Below are positions 42,465-58,651 of a stretch of DNA of 64,000 nucleotides, piece after piece. Each line of letters opens with the position of its first letter. The first letter of the stretch is position 1. The position numbers and the translations under genes were made by a program. The stretch covers positions 186,001-250,000 of the forward strand of contig NZ_SOAL01000007.1 in NCBI RefSeq assembly GCF_004364775.1. Reading direction: 5' to 3'. The notes under the pieces are model-generated. The model ran no database searches and was not told the origin of the DNA. It worked only from the letters and a program-made list of their open reading frames with translations. The stretch comes from Comamonas sp. JUb58. GTDB taxonomy: Bacteria; Pseudomonadota; Gammaproteobacteria; Burkholderiales; Burkholderiaceae_C.

Positions 42465-42611
42465 GCCTTGTTGCGTTCTGCTGCAAGTCGAAGCTAATTC
42501 CTTGTTTATTAAGGATATGGCTCAGATGGTGTGCTGCAGTATGTTGCACCAAGGCGCATGCAATTGTCATTCTTATGAGGGCATGATGAGGGCGTGAATA
42601 TAATCTCCGCC
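42465..42611. other. Left prophage junction region (attL expected here)
   Basis: 147 bp between the fadD terminator and the integrase start. More AT-rich than the chromosome. No tRNA or tmRNA fragment is visible. The attL core cannot be fixed without the right end; AATCTCCGC, present at 42452-42460 and 42602-42610, is one candidate. Confidence 0.35.
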
Positions 42612-46131: not shown

Positions 46132-46958
46132 GCTGCACCATCCTTTCCAGATGAGGCATTGCCGCCTTCCTGGGCTGCAGCCATGGCGGCGTCGAGCGCA
46201 ATGTCAAGGTCGTGGCCATCAGCATCAAACTCAATGTCCAAGGTCTTCTTGCCCTTGGTTGCTTCAAGGCGAGATACCCATTCACGAACGCAGTTTTCGC
46301 GCAAGTAGTCATAGCGCGCAGCCTTCTTGATCGTCTCCGCATCCAGCGCATCAGCGGGCTGGGCCTGGGGTGCTGTGTAGAGCTGGTGGATGCCGGGCGG
46401 CAGTTCGCCATAGCGCAACTCAAGTTCAACTGTCTTTTTCCCTGCCTCGTCTTGGCCGACGCGCGCTTCCGCCACCGGCTCGGCCTGCACCTCTGCCAGG
46501 TCACCTGCCGAGGAATCCTCGGTAGCTGGAAGGGCTGGGGTGGCGGCAAGGGCGGCGCGCTCGAAGCAATGCGCACGCGGGTTGGAGCGGCCACCTCCGC
46601 AAGACCCTGTAAATGCTTCTTCAGCACCACATACGCCGCAAGGCATCACCTCTGCGGGCGCTGCCTGTGCTGCCACTGCCTGGTCGCCTCGCATCCGCAA
46701 GCATTCGTCGCGGATCATCAAGCCGGCCGCATGCGAGTCAGCGGAATGCGGCCACTCAGCAACCACTGCGATCAGCACCGGGTCAATGTCCTGGCGCTTG
46801 ATACGGCAAATCGAGGTATTCAGGGCGTTTGCTTCTTCTAGCGCCACCTTGCGGGATGGCATTGGGTGCACATCATCAGCGCCTGTAACGTGCACACACC
46901 AGAGCGGTGCAGCCCCCTCGGCAGTCTTGAGGGGAGCGGAAGAGTTGTTTTCAGCCAT
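46128..46958 (-). CDS. Hypothetical phage protein (276 aa)
   Basis: Low-complexity Ala/Glu-rich protein with a cysteine-rich patch (PCGVCGAEEAFTGSCGGG). A C-terminal segment, ARYDYLRENCVREWVSRLEA then DLDIALDAAM, is a common ending of phage early-region proteins. GGAGG ribosome-binding site. Overlaps the 3' end of the methyltransferase gene by 8 bp. Function unknown. Confidence 0.6.
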   Translation of the reverse strand: MAENNSSAPLKTAEGAAPLWCVHVTGADDVHPMPSRKVALEEANALNTSICRIKRQDIDPVLIAVVAEWPHSADSHAAGLMIRDECLRMRGDQAVAAQAAPAEVMPCGVCGAEEAFTGSCGGGRSNPRAHCFERAALAATPALPATEDSSAGDLAEVQAEPVAEARVGQDEAGKKTVELELRYGELPPGIHQLYTAPQAQPADALDAETIKKAARYDYLRENCVREWVSRLEATKGKKTLDIEFDADGHDLDIALDAAMAAAQEGGNASSGKDGAA

Positions 46959-48465
46959 GTTGGGCCTCCAATTTCAGGATTTGGGTGTTGATGCGGCGGC
47001 CTATCCAGCGCGCCACGGGTACTGCCCAGCTATTGCCTAGCGCTTTGTAGCGAGGGCCATCTGGACATTGGTCGGCTGGCTTGCCGCGCCAGGGGATCGC
47101 GGTGTAGCCATCTGGAAAGCCTTGGAGGCGTTCGCACTCGACGGGGGTTAGGCGACGAACCTGGCTGGCGGTCAGCAGTGCTGGTGCAGGGCTGCATGCA
47201 TCGAGGCAAGGGCTGCGTTCCTCGAAAATCTTTCCAGCGTTGTTGCTGGCAGTGTTATGCAGCTTGGTGGTGTAGGCGATAAAGTGACCAGCTGCAGCTC
47301 CCTCAGGCCGTCCTCCTGCGCCGCCTGTGAAGCTGTCGCGGCAGATGGCGCCAACAACATGGGGGATAACTGGCACCAAATATTCGTCTTTACTATCCCC
47401 CGACATCGCACCATGGCTGGCTTTGCTCCCGCCTCCGCTTCTGAGGGTAGGCATGATGTCCACATGGGCTACGCACACCGCATTCTCTTGCCCTTGGTTT
47501 ATTCCGAGGGTATGCGCCATGTCGCGCAGCGTGTCCGGGTCTTGTGAGCCGTGTACAACAAGCATGGAGTGCCCATGGTTGCTATCCTGTCCACTTGCAC
47601 CTTGCAGCCTGCCGTAGCTCGCATCAAGAGTTGCAGTTACAGGCTGCAGGTATCCACTGCAAGCCTCGTCTGTCCCTGGGAAACCGCCAGCTCCAGTGCG
47701 GCTTGCAAGCGTTCCGGCAGTTTCTTCCCCCGTTTCTCGGCTCGGCGCAGAATCCCGGCGCATGCCGTCCCACTCAAAAAGAACCGACGCGGGATCAAAC
47801 CCCGGTCTAGCACTTGCGACAACAAACACACGTCGGCGGCGTTGGGCCACTCCGAAATATTGGGCGTCCATGGTCCGCCATGCGATTGCTCTTTGGGGTC
47901 CAAACACACAACCAGCGAGCCCCCAGCTTGCATTGTGCTGCCCGGCTTTTTTGTCCCACTTCCAGAACTTGCTTGATTTTCCGGCTGCTGGCCTGGGCTC
48001 TGGTGGCTCCAGTGGGCCATTTTCGCCGGCAAGCCCAGCCAAAAAGCACCCGAATGCGTTATCGGCGGTGGTGAGAACTCCGGGCACGTTTTCCCAGAAG
48101 ATGGATGCGGCGGGCTTTCCGGCGCGGGTTCTAGAAAAGTCAATTGCATTTGCAAGCTCCACGAATTTAAGGGTTAGATTTCCGCGCTCGTCCTCCAAAG
48201 ACTTGCGCAGGCCGGCCACGCTGAAACCCTGGCAGGGCGTGCCGCCGGCCAGGACATCAGGGGCTGAGACTTCGCCGATAAGGACGCGGCGGGCAATGGT
48301 GGTCATGTCGCCCAGGTTGGGGACGGTTGGATGGTGATGAGCCAGCGCGGCAGCTGGGAACGGCTCAATCTCAGCCAGCCAAGCTGCGCGCCATCCCAAT
48401 GGGTGCCACGCAACACTTGCCGCCTCGATGCCGCTGCAGACTGAGCCAAATTCGATGGGGTCCAT
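46951..48465 (-). CDS. DNA (cytosine-5) methyltransferase, solitary
   Basis: Phage Dcm-type C5 methyltransferase. SAM motif FGSVCSGIEAASVAW at the N-terminus, catalytic Cys78 in GTPCQGFSVAGLR, ENV motif in FWENVPGVL, and the C-terminal motif (RRLTPVECERLQGFPDGYT) with ALGNSWAVPVA. 504 residues. The ATG at 48465 gives the standard start; the frame stays open to a GTG at 48525. No restriction nuclease gene is adjacent, so it probably protects phage DNA from host enzymes. Recognition sequence unknown. Confidence 0.92.
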   Translation of the reverse strand: MDPIEFGSVCSGIEAASVAWHPLGWRAAWLAEIEPFPAAALAHHHPTVPNLGDMTTIARRVLIGEVSAPDVLAGGTPCQGFSVAGLRKSLEDERGNLTLKFVELANAIDFSRTRAGKPAASIFWENVPGVLTTADNAFGCFLAGLAGENGPLEPPEPRPAAGKSSKFWKWDKKAGQHNASWGLAGCVFGPQRAIAWRTMDAQYFGVAQRRRRVFVVASARPGFDPASVLFEWDGMRRDSAPSRETGEETAGTLASRTGAGGFPGTDEACSGYLQPVTATLDASYGRLQGASGQDSNHGHSMLVVHGSQDPDTLRDMAHTLGINQGQENAVCVAHVDIMPTLRSGGGSKASHGAMSGDSKDEYLVPVIPHVVGAICRDSFTGGAGGRPEGAAAGHFIAYTTKLHNTASNNAGKIFEERSPCLDACSPAPALLTASQVRRLTPVECERLQGFPDGYTAIPWRGKPADQCPDGPRYKALGNSWAVPVARWIGRRINTQILKLEAQHG

Positions 48466-48481
48466 GGCGTAGAAAGAAATG

Positions 48482-48509
48482 AGCCCGCCTCGATTGCTCA
48501 GGGCGGGCT
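48482..48509 (-). terminator. Hairpin just upstream of the methyltransferase start
   Basis: AGCCCGCC (48482-48489) pairs with GGCGGGCT (48502-48509). On the minus strand it is followed by CATTTCTTTC, so it is a weak terminator or attenuator in the leader of the methyltransferase gene. Confidence 0.5.
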
Positions 48510-48576
48510 GTGAATAGGGGCCCACTGGGGGCGGTGGTTAGCCAGGGCGTCTTTTTTGTTCCGGGGGAATCCCGGA

Positions 48577-55535: not shown

Positions 55536-55667
55536 GTTCAATTATTTTTTCTTATAGCGCTTCGAGACGGCAGGAGGCCGCTCTGCACAAGGTGCAAATG
55601 TGGCTTGCGCAAACGTGGATTGCGGCAGTGTCAAATTGCGGTTGCATCAGCCTATAGACTGTGTAAC

Positions 55668-55685
55668 ACTGTATGCGCATACAGT
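55668..55685. promoter_or_regulatory. LexA (SOS) box
   Basis: ACTGTATGC (55668-55676) is followed directly by its complement GCATACAGT (55677-55685), giving a perfect palindrome with the form CTGT-N8-ACAG, the LexA consensus of gamma- and beta-proteobacteria. It ends 9 bp before the ATG of the small HTH gene, so LexA binding would block that promoter. Confidence 0.75.
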
Positions 55686-55694
55686 ACTTCAATC

Positions 55695-55970
55695 ATGAGC
55701 ACAGAACAAAAAAAGCTACTTGGAAGCAGGCTCAAAGCAGCAAGGACAGAGGCCGATGTGTCTCAAGACTTTGCGGCCGAGACTCTGGGTGTGACGCGGC
55801 AGTCAGTGTCCGCGTGGGAAAGGGGTGCCAGCAGCCCTTCAGCGATTCAGCTAGGTCAGCTAGCTGCGATGTATTGCATTTGCGCCCACAAGCTCTTGTT
55901 TGGCGAGCCGTTCCAACAGGTACGGCTGAGCGGCATCTTGAGCGGAGAGCGACTCGACTCAAAAAGTTAA
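55695..55970 (+). CDS. SOS-controlled XRE-family HTH protein
   Basis: 91 residues from the ATG at 55695 (MSTEQKKLLGSRLKAARTEA). HTH_XRE domain in VSQDFAAETLGVTRQSVSAWERGASSPSAIQLGQLAAMY, about residues 17-60. No clear Shine-Dalgarno. A perfect LexA box lies directly upstream, and the next gene starts 12 bp downstream on the same strand. Read with the non-cleavable repressor at 57769, it is a candidate SOS-induced antirepressor or its regulator; that role is inference. Confidence 0.75.
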   Translation: MSTEQKKLLGSRLKAARTEADVSQDFAAETLGVTRQSVSAWERGASSPSAIQLGQLAAMYCICAHKLLFGEPFQQVRLSGILSGERLDSKS

Positions 55971-55982
55971 AAGGGGAAAAAC

Positions 55983-56255
55983 ATGACGGAGCAAGAAATC
56001 CTGGCCAAGATCCAATCGCACGATCTACCGCTGCCCAGGCCGAGAGATGTGGGTGCCTTCTATGCAGCCTGGCTAGCGACTGTCTATGACGCCTTGACGC
56101 CCGAGCAGCAGGCGCAGGCAATTACGCTGGGTGGCGTCGTCAACTACCGCAGCACTTACCTCGTCCCCGTCCTGAAAGTTTCCGACATTGACGGCTGGCT
56201 GTCTCAGTGTGGGAAGAGCGTAGGCCCGCTGACTTCTGACGGATCGCTTGCATGA
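55983..56255 (+). CDS. Small phage protein in the SOS-box operon (90 aa)
   Basis: Begins MTEQEILAKIQSHDLPLPRP; AAGGGGAAAAAC ribosome-binding site. 12 bp after the HTH gene, so probably under the same LexA box. Compact alpha/beta composition (ALTPEQQAQAITLGGVVNYRS). LexA-controlled antirepressors in Salmonella Gifsy prophages are of similar size, but no homology is claimed. Confidence 0.6.
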   Translation: MTEQEILAKIQSHDLPLPRPRDVGAFYAAWLATVYDALTPEQQAQAITLGGVVNYRSTYLVPVLKVSDIDGWLSQCGKSVGPLTSDGSLA

Positions 56256-56307: not shown

Positions 56308-56751
56308 TCATTCGGCACTAAGCAGTGCAAAAAATACCAACAAGACTCTGTAGAAGCAAGAGAGCGCGTAAGCGAACAGCGTAGCCCAAGCAGGGATGAT
56401 GTAGGTGTAAAGCAACTCGGGTAGCGCGTCGAAAGAGGTGGCCATCAAACAGATGGAACCAATGCATAAAGTAAAGTTTGATAACAGCGCTGCTTTGAAA
56501 TAACCTAACAATATCTTCCAAATCTCCGGCTTGGACTTTAGCCATGTATATTTGGGAGATCTGAAACTTAGCAGCATTGCTTTTGCTGTGCCTAGAAACC
56601 CCATTAATATTGCGGATACGCTAATTGCAGAGTTTAATATTGCTTCAAGCTTGGTGGCTTGAATTTTGAATTCAAAATACCAGGCAAAAAATCCTGTAGT
56701 CAATGAGAAAATTACAGGGAAATACTTCTCTGTGATTAACTTATTGCTCAT
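56308..56751 (-). CDS. 4-TM membrane protein, RexB-like by position and topology
   Basis: 147 residues with four hydrophobic helices (about 11-27, 37-58, 82-105, 115-143), a basic cytoplasmic loop after TM2 (SFRSPKYTWLKSKPE) and no signal peptide. Lambda RexB is 144 residues with four TM helices and acts as an ion channel in phage exclusion. The gene starts 4 bp after the RexA-like gene and is followed by a terminator. The DNA is distinctly AT-richer than the flanks. Kiwa KwaA is an alternative analogue. Confidence 0.65.
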   Translation of the reverse strand: MSNKLITEKYFPVIFSLTTGFFAWYFEFKIQATKLEAILNSAISVSAILMGFLGTAKAMLLSFRSPKYTWLKSKPEIWKILLGYFKAALLSNFTLCIGSICLMATSFDALPELLYTYIIPAWATLFAYALSCFYRVLLVFFALLSAE

Positions 56752-56755
56752 TATT

Positions 56756-57625
56756 TTATATCCAGTCTTTCATTGTCTGCTCTAGCAGACCGTATAGTTG
56801 AATGGGATCATATCTTTTCCCAGTGGTTCTGTCAATGCTATTTGCCTTATATACAGAGAATTTTCTGGATTCCAGGAGGTCTATTGTTTCGACTTGCTCC
56901 TCTTCAGAATGTTTGGCTGTAACAAAAAGACTGTCATTATCACCGGATCGACTTTTTATTTTCTCGACAAGTCGCTCAACCCAGCTCCTATCTAATTTAT
57001 TCTTTTTTATTCTGGCATCCACAGATACGCTGAATTTGTAGGAAGTGCCATGAGCATCAACGCTTTGTTTCAAAGCTCCCTCAATGCCCGTCCCCTGTAA
57101 GAGCGCTACATCGGCCATAGTCACACCATCTATACAAGCCTCGACCTCTGTCACGATCTGCTTGTGGCCGTACTTGGCAGCGGCATCGTTGGTGAGCACG
57201 GGAATAAATGAATAAGCCTGAGGTGTATTCGCTTCGCTTATAGATAAATACTCTTTGATGCGAGATGCTCTCACTCCGTAATGGTTATATTGGATAACTA
57301 ATTTTGAATTTTTTGGCAAGTAGAGTATTGATGTTTCTTCAGATAAAATCTGATCGTCATCCAGATCAAGGTCTTTTACGGCCTCGGCAGTGGTTGATAC
57401 TCCTGGCCAGTTGTCGTCCTGAAATTTGCAGAATCTAACCAGCCAGTAGTCATCACCATTGGTAAATTGTTTTTTCTGAACATCATCGATGCGGATTCTT
57501 TGGCCGCCGCAATCTAGAATTCTGTCTTCTAATGGCTTTGCTGCGATTGCTTGCAAAACATCTTCAAGCGGTTTTGCTTGTTTTGCTTGGTTAACGAGAT
57601 AGCAGTAAACTTTGATGGTCTTCAA
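56756..57625 (-). CDS. Soluble 289-aa protein, RexA-like by position and pattern
   Basis: TTG start at 57623-57625 with a strong AGGAG seven bases upstream. Lambda RexA is 279 residues. The order of features matches: a strand-rich N-terminal third, an acidic DLDLDDDQILSEE before a strand pair (TSILYLPKNSKLVIQY), the hydrophobic IVTEVEACI, and LLQGTGIEGAL, which I compare with ATDIEGEL in RexA. Directly downstream of the repressor, with the 4-TM gene next, as in cI-rexA-rexB. AT-rich, so probably acquired separately. Similarity is remote and needs a profile search. Confidence 0.6.
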   Translation of the reverse strand: MKTIKVYCYLVNQAKQAKPLEDVLQAIAAKPLEDRILDCGGQRIRIDDVQKKQFTNGDDYWLVRFCKFQDDNWPGVSTTAEAVKDLDLDDDQILSEETSILYLPKNSKLVIQYNHYGVRASRIKEYLSISEANTPQAYSFIPVLTNDAAAKYGHKQIVTEVEACIDGVTMADVALLQGTGIEGALKQSVDAHGTSYKFSVSVDARIKKNKLDRSWVERLVEKIKSRSGDNDSLFVTAKHSEEEQVETIDLLESRKFSVYKANSIDRTTGKRYDPIQLYGLLEQTMKDWI

Positions 57626-57768: not shown

Positions 57769-58335
57769 TCACTGCGACTGAGGCTCCTTGGTTTTTCGGG
57801 GCGCGCGCTTTCGTGCTGCCGATTTGGCAGGCGGGGGAGCAGGAGAAGCTGATGGAATGGGAGCGTGAGGGAAAGGATTTGCGGCAGACTTCTGCGGCCG
57901 GGCCACCCCGTGCAAGCGGTTGGCCAGCTGTAACAAATCGTCCTTCGATTCATTGGGCAGATCCCGATACATGAGTACCAGTTGCATCTCAAGCTTTGAC
58001 AGACTGGTTAGGTCCGCCGGCCCAGCCGAATCGTCACCGCCAGCCGTTGCAACTGCTTCACCAATAACCTTAGCCTCGCTCGCGAGGGTCAAGCTGAAAT
58101 CATCGATCTGGCAACCGAAGATCTTCGCAAACTTGGCTGCTGCTGGAGCGTTTAGCGGGATACCTCCGTTGAGGTACTGACTCACCGCGCTCTGGTTGAT
58201 GTCAAGCAGCACGCCCAGGGCAAGTTGCCCACTCGGCAGCCCATCTTTTTTGCGCGCAGCCTTCCATTGCTCAAAGATTGCTTTTAGTCGCCGAGCATCG
58301 GCATGCTGCTCAGGGGAGAGGGGGAGGGCTGGCAT
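57769..58335 (-). CDS. Phage repressor, XRE-HTH type without peptidase domain
   Basis: 188 residues from the ATG at 58335 (MPALPLSPEQHADARRLKAI). The HTH lies in GQLALGVLLDINQSAVSQYLNGGIPLNAPAAAKFAKIFG (about 36-74). The C-terminal half is a short helical segment and a Lys/Ala/Pro tail; no S24/LexA Ser-Lys peptidase motifs are present, so RecA-stimulated self-cleavage is not expected. No Shine-Dalgarno, and a TATACT -10 ends 9 bases before the ATG: probably leaderless, as lambda cI from pRM. Divergent from the Cro-like gene over shared operators. Confidence 0.82.
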   Translation of the reverse strand: MPALPLSPEQHADARRLKAIFEQWKAARKKDGLPSGQLALGVLLDINQSAVSQYLNGGIPLNAPAAAKFAKIFGCQIDDFSLTLASEAKVIGEAVATAGGDDSAGPADLTSLSKLEMQLVLMYRDLPNESKDDLLQLANRLHGVARPQKSAANPFPHAPIPSASPAPPPAKSAARKRAPRKTKEPQSQ

Positions 58336-58344
58336 GGGGGCGAG

Positions 58345-58350
58345 AGTATA
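58345..58350 (-). promoter_or_regulatory. Repressor promoter (pRM-like) -10 element
   Basis: TATACT on the minus strand ends 9 bases before the repressor ATG. A TTGATT lies 15 bases upstream of it, so the -35 is imperfectly spaced, as expected for an activator-assisted promoter. Confidence 0.5.
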
Positions 58351-58370
58351 AGTAACGCTGATTAAAATCA

Positions 58371-58409
58371 AACAGTCGGACTGTTGACTTATGAATTAGT
58401 CGGACTGAT
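58371..58409. promoter_or_regulatory. Operators OR1 and OR2
   Basis: AACAGTC-G-GACTGTT (58371-58385) is a perfect palindrome; ATTAGTC-G-GACTGAT (58395-58409) has one mismatch. Centres are 24 bp apart. Both share the AGTC-S-GACT core with the two operators over pL, 2.9 kb away. Confidence 0.85.
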
Positions 58410-58417: not shown

Positions 58418-58651
58418 ATGCACAACCTCAAACCTATTCGACAGCTTCTTGGAGTGACGCAACGAGCTATGGCCGAAGGGCTGGGCTGCACCCAGGGCAA
58501 CATCGGCAACTACGAAAAAGGGCAAACCCTTCCGCCCGATGCTGCTAGGAACCTGATCGCCTTCTCGGCAACCCTCGGCCTGGTCATTTCATACGACCAC
58601 ATTTACGGCGGGGCGTTGCTTCCCAAGCGCAAGGAGGTGGCCCATGGATAA
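58418..58651 (+). CDS. Cro-like HTH regulator
   Basis: 77 residues; HTH_XRE in LLGVTQRAMAEGLGCTQGNIGNYEKGQTLPPDAARNLIAF (about 10-50). First gene of the rightward operon. It has no usable ribosome-binding site (GAGG is one base from the ATG), and the pR start point predicts a leaderless mRNA. Its stop overlaps the next gene's start. Expected to bind the same operators as the repressor and favour lytic growth. Confidence 0.85.
   Translation: MHNLKPIRQLLGVTQRAMAEGLGCTQGNIGNYEKGQTLPPDAARNLIAFSATLGLVISYDHIYGGALLPKRKEVAHG

Follow-up and report, generated by a model that had tools for sequence, protein, structure and literature searches.

A probable divergent RexAB-type superinfection-exclusion pair beside the immunity region of a Comamonas prophage

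Do two small genes beside a prophage repressor in Comamonas sp. JUb58 belong with the RexAB exclusion system of phage lambda? The question arises from a preliminary description of the window, a stretch of 64,000 nucleotides (contig NZ_SOAL01000007.1, positions 186,001 to 250,000), which likened a soluble protein and a four-transmembrane (4-TM) protein encoded there to lambda RexA and RexB. Our analysis supports that proposal. The two genes probably form a RexAB-type superinfection-exclusion pair of a divergent kind; AT-rich and with terminator-like flanks, it makes up a unit beside the prophage immunity region. Lambda RexA is the best solved structural match of the soluble protein, profiles of both proteins resemble their lambda-type counterparts beyond all shuffled controls and unrelated families, and a membrane partner accompanies the soluble protein in every locus surveyed.

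Both open reading frames (ORFs) are present as first described, on the reverse strand and separated by a 4-bp gap. The RexA-like gene (56756 to 57625) starts with TTG, has AGGAG upstream and encodes 289 residues, and the RexB-like gene (56308 to 56751) starts with ATG and encodes 147; the sizes quoted for lambda (RexA 279 and RexB 144 residues) are correct. A structure model of the 147-residue protein (pLDDT 83.5) contains four long helices plus a single short helix, in agreement with a 4-TM partner, and simple hydropathy gives three hydrophobic segments. The gene directly upstream, also on the reverse strand (57769 to 58371), encodes a repressor-like helix-turn-helix (HTH) protein of 200 residues, which matches phrog_4 and phrog_8 and barely passes the cut-off for HTH_3 (23.2 against 23 bits). 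The GC content over the pair is 38-44% in 500-base windows, compared with about 48-64% in the rest of the 50-62 kb region, so that the pair is indeed AT-richer than its surroundings.

The 289-residue protein is a direct member of DUF6731 (PF20505), with 95.7 bits against a curated cut-off of 27 (E = 4.8 × 10−27). The family entry gives the function as unknown and does not include the membrane partner, and DUF6731 is not named in the literature searched. For the 147-residue protein, phrog_17119 provides a link to lambda RexB, matching the two over a similar part at 2 × 10−5 and 0.034, respectively. Four DUF6731 partners were run against the PADLOC RexB model, and one of them (locus L019) matched at 2.2 × 10−4.

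In the structure comparison, lambda RexA was the best solved match of the 289-residue model, well above RdgC and kinetochore proteins, and over part of the protein the modeled fold is common with RexA. The fold search with the 147-residue model returned nothing below 0.001. Its first row was a protein of phage ctylc9 (0.015), and its third was a 165-residue Sbash protein (0.23) equal in length to gp31. The ranking bears on a different explanation, in which the genes would belong to some other membrane defence of two genes (Kiwa, for instance), or a membrane gene would lie by an RdgC-like recombination gene to which it is unrelated. We consider this very improbable, given the margin of RexA over RdgC, the lack of any Kiwa model among the Pfam and PADLOC matches and of any RdgC model among the Pfam, PHROGs and PADLOC matches of the window proteins, and the constant presence of a downstream membrane ORF.

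Profile-profile comparison extends the likeness to both proteins. An alignment of 50 DUF6731 rows scored 25.6 when compared with 13 distinct RexA rows of the lambda type, and the match was colinear through 163 columns (67-243 against 59-227). This score exceeded the reversed profile and all 200 shuffles (100 column and 100 block shuffles; maximum 20.9). The 47 partner rows scored 33.0 against 10 distinct RexB rows, with a maximum of 25.9 in 200 shuffles. Unrelated families drawn from the fetched loci (ten in all, not selected as membrane proteins) reached at most 17.5 and 13.1 in the two comparisons. The profiles contained no Butters sequence.

We surveyed 17 DUF6731 loci, comprising the window, two phage records (Listeria and Streptococcus), five IMG/VR contigs and nine bacterial genomes. 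Because these loci were found through the soluble protein, the pairing is unselected in this sample. In all 17, the DUF6731 gene is followed immediately, on its own strand, by a hydrophobic ORF that abuts or overlaps it. The partner profile detects it in 14 (in L022 just, at E = 0.019), and by hydropathy the partners in L003, L021 and L023 have four, three and three segments. Three further loci were left out of the count: L025, which holds pieces only, and L026 and L027, which were found with the partner profile and have no DUF6731 gene in the stretch fetched. Of the 35 DUF6731 proteins in the protein lists, 16 have a longest contig equal in length to that of a listed partner, which suggests that they sit on the partner's contig.

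Several results weigh against a RexAB-type assignment. No RexA model (PF15969) matched the 289-residue protein and no RexB model (PF15968) the 147-residue protein in Pfam, PHROGs or PADLOC up to E = 10, the other three of the four partners had no PADLOC RexB match, and 34-sequence profiles gave no match when set against lambda RexA or RexB as single sequences. The structural agreement with RexA amounts to a global TM-score of 0.36-0.38 with 135 of 289 residues superposed, and neither lambda RexA nor RexB was among the best 50 rows listed from a viral structure library in which their presence was not checked. The DUF6731 profile showed no signal to the soluble proteins of Sbash, CarolAnn and Sejanus; the same was true of lambda RexA. 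The make-up of the unrelated families is a further point, as is the alignment of lambda R219 with T236, a column that is T in 16 and S in 11 of the 50 DUF6731 rows and not basic in most. The L019 pair adjoins RsmI-like and YraN-like ORFs, which by eye look like host genes, and so it possibly lies outside a prophage. The weakest point of the lambda analogy is repressor adjacency. The preliminary description expected homologues near phage repressors and with a 4-TM partner; the membrane ORF was found throughout, but 5 of 13 judged loci besides the window had an HTH_3 gene no more than about 3 kb away (L009, L010, L011, L012 and L021), with none within 3 kb among the matches listed for the other eight (L002, L003, L008, L016, L019, L020, L022 and L023). 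Incompleteness of the HTH_3 list bears on L016, L019 and L022, the count would overlook any repressor whose HTH_3 escapes detection, and L013-L015 were not placeable and were left out of this count. Its partial fold, its profiles and its anatomy make the pair RexAB-type; because the narrow RexA and RexB HMMs miss its proteins, it is on sequence grounds a divergent clade outside the Pfam families PF15969 and PF15968.

The neighbourhood also bears on whether exclusion would be a by-product. The soluble protein could instead bind DNA and bias the prophage to lytic growth, with the membrane protein restraining it. Lambda RexA is described as favouring the lytic state without needing RexB (PMC11077077), the window pair adjoins both the repressor gene and a forward-strand gene for a 77-residue Cro-like HTH protein (58418 to 58651), and K238 corresponds to lambda K221. 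Such a switch modulator is unlikely in our judgement, however, given the eight loci without a listed HTH_3 gene nearby and the Streptococcus phage pair, which sits directly before terminase genes.

The residues implicated in DNA binding are partly retained. The column of K238, which aligns with lambda K221, is K in 36 and R in 8 of the 50 DUF6731 rows, and lambda D215 falls one column off D231 (D in 33 of 50). In lambda RexA, the R219A/K221A double change abolishes DNA binding, and binding did not correlate with exclusion, as reported in PMC11077077. Therefore, the 289-residue protein likely binds DNA, judging from this alignment, and exclusion may not depend on such binding. The family has a signature of its own, with the motifs NxPG, EET and QYNHxGV and with P74 in 50, E96 in 50, Q112 in 49, H115 in 44 and G117 in 47 of the 50 rows. 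Lambda RexA lacks this signature and shares only G117 among these five positions in the profile alignment. The IEGxL block that had been compared with RexA did not hold up as a resemblance: of 50 rows, 21 have E182 and 16 have G183, and the lambda IEG aligns three columns off, so the block is, by this alignment, no family feature.

How does the pair compare with known systems? It shares with lambda RexA/RexB the gene order, the orientation to the repressor, the protein sizes, part of the RexA fold, a four-helix partner and the profile similarity of both proteins. It differs in the terminator-like hairpin after the repressor, the DUF6731 signature, the lack of lambda R219 and its escape from the RexA/RexB HMMs. 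RexABpp of Pseudomonas putida (PP_5643/PP_5644), to which we liken it by published description and not by sequence, likewise lies in a prophage, downstream of the gene for a CI-like repressor, with a RexApp that is RexA-like by HHpred and AlphaFold and a four-TM partner (PMC12894663). According to the same account, RexBpp has at least 181 residues (from a Y181H mutant), compared with 147 in the window protein, two further genes separate the P. putida pair from its repressor, both genes of the pair are needed for defence, and RexABpp is one of five RexAB-like systems described. The pairs Sbash gp30/gp31, CarolAnn gp44/gp43 and Butters gp30/gp31 likewise combine a soluble and a four-TM protein in temperate phages with defence shown, but their soluble proteins have 370-403 residues against 289. 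The Sbash and Butters pairs are described as located away from their repressors (PMC11077077).

In lambda, Sbash, CarolAnn and P. putida, as these systems are described, both genes are needed and the soluble protein activates a membrane effector (PMC12894663, PMC6426596, PMC6426606). RexApp overproduction halts growth only with RexBpp present, and the two together are reported to leave some cells leaky with no measured depolarization (PMC12894663). By analogy, the DUF6731 protein would be a dimer with non-specific DNA binding that senses something made by the infecting phage; once activated, it would switch on the four-helix membrane protein, which would damage the inner membrane, stop growth and abort the infection. 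Exclusion is thus a predicted function of the pair. Because these four systems use a soluble activator and a membrane effector, a sensor-then-effector order as in P. putida would be the simplest reading. The trigger may differ from lambda's because DUF6731 has a signature that lambda RexA lacks. Butters offers a precedent for reversed roles, since its soluble protein is described as the antiviral effector that the membrane protein keeps inactive (PMC12894663). The profile likeness is to lambda RexAB, where RexB is taken as the effector, and Butters stood outside the profiles; we find it hard to credit a reversed arrangement here.

A broader proposal, for which we see the case as evenly balanced, is that DUF6731 and its partner form a broad RexAB clade that spans proteobacterial prophages as well as phages of Listeria and Streptococcus and in which QYNHxGV senses a non-lambda trigger. 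If true, RexAB would be a widespread class of phage exclusion. To our knowledge, the activation of lambda Rex exclusion is still unexplained after about 70 years. The occurrence of a membrane ORF at 17 of 17 loci supplies many natural variants in which to compare RexA sensing and RexB opening, and the pairing gives a family of unknown function a testable one.

Terminator-like hairpins with U runs flank the pair, both on its own strand. The closing one, at about 56277-56255, bears out the terminator first noted there (−13.9 kcal/mol, z = −2.6, equalled by 3 of 200 shuffles) and is missing from the list of the automatic terminator scan. The one in the interval between repressor and pair (57763-57744) was listed by that scan (−14.1 kcal/mol, z = −2.0, equalled by 9 of 200 shuffles). 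Given hairpins on both sides and low GC, the pair therefore looks like a separate AT-rich unit. Independent expression had been proposed from a terminator separating repressor and pair. It is plausible because a terminator-like hairpin precedes the pair, but a promoter scan of the gap found no consensus promoter-like site. In lambda and CarolAnn the pair is co-transcribed with the repressor, and in Sbash it is not. Inside the end of the RexA-like gene, a candidate promoter-like site (56807 to 56835, reverse strand; 11/12), 79-51 bases before the gene end, could express the RexB-like gene alone, and 2 of 300 simple gene shuffles were as good. Lambda rexA contains a promoter for rexB only, a point not confirmed in the literature searched. 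Three of eight scanned lambda-type rexA genes (lambda, MS2 LVA and L044) have 9-10/12 sites 75-40 bases before the end, and the other five have none at that position. The site in the window may be due to chance because none of the 16 other DUF6731 loci scanned has one at the corresponding position.

A prophage recorded in IMG/VR as a virus of 28,392 bases lies with its left part in the window; by the coordinates of L007 it starts at window position 42594, the integrase start, and continues until contig C7 ends. In a lambda-like order, the integrase is followed by leftward single-strand-binding and Sak4-like genes and then by the repressor, Cro-like, CII-like, O-like, NinB and NinG genes, with terminase-like and portal-like ORFs, judged by eye, farther right. 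The prophage also encodes a 524-residue DNA methyltransferase (46951 to 48525, reverse strand). On the forward strand, a small ORF that looks HTH-like by eye and a 90-residue ORF with no PHROG match converge on the pair (55605 to 56255), and the latter ends at the closing hairpin. Elsewhere in the survey, L026 contains a partner-like membrane ORF (1369-1893), and L025 contains fragments of a DUF6731 gene and partner (1579-2300) with a stop inside the match. A single protein, P0071, is listed with both DUF4747 and DUF6731; DUF4747 is mentioned in the Sbash, CarolAnn and Butters papers as a weak domain match for RexA-like proteins.
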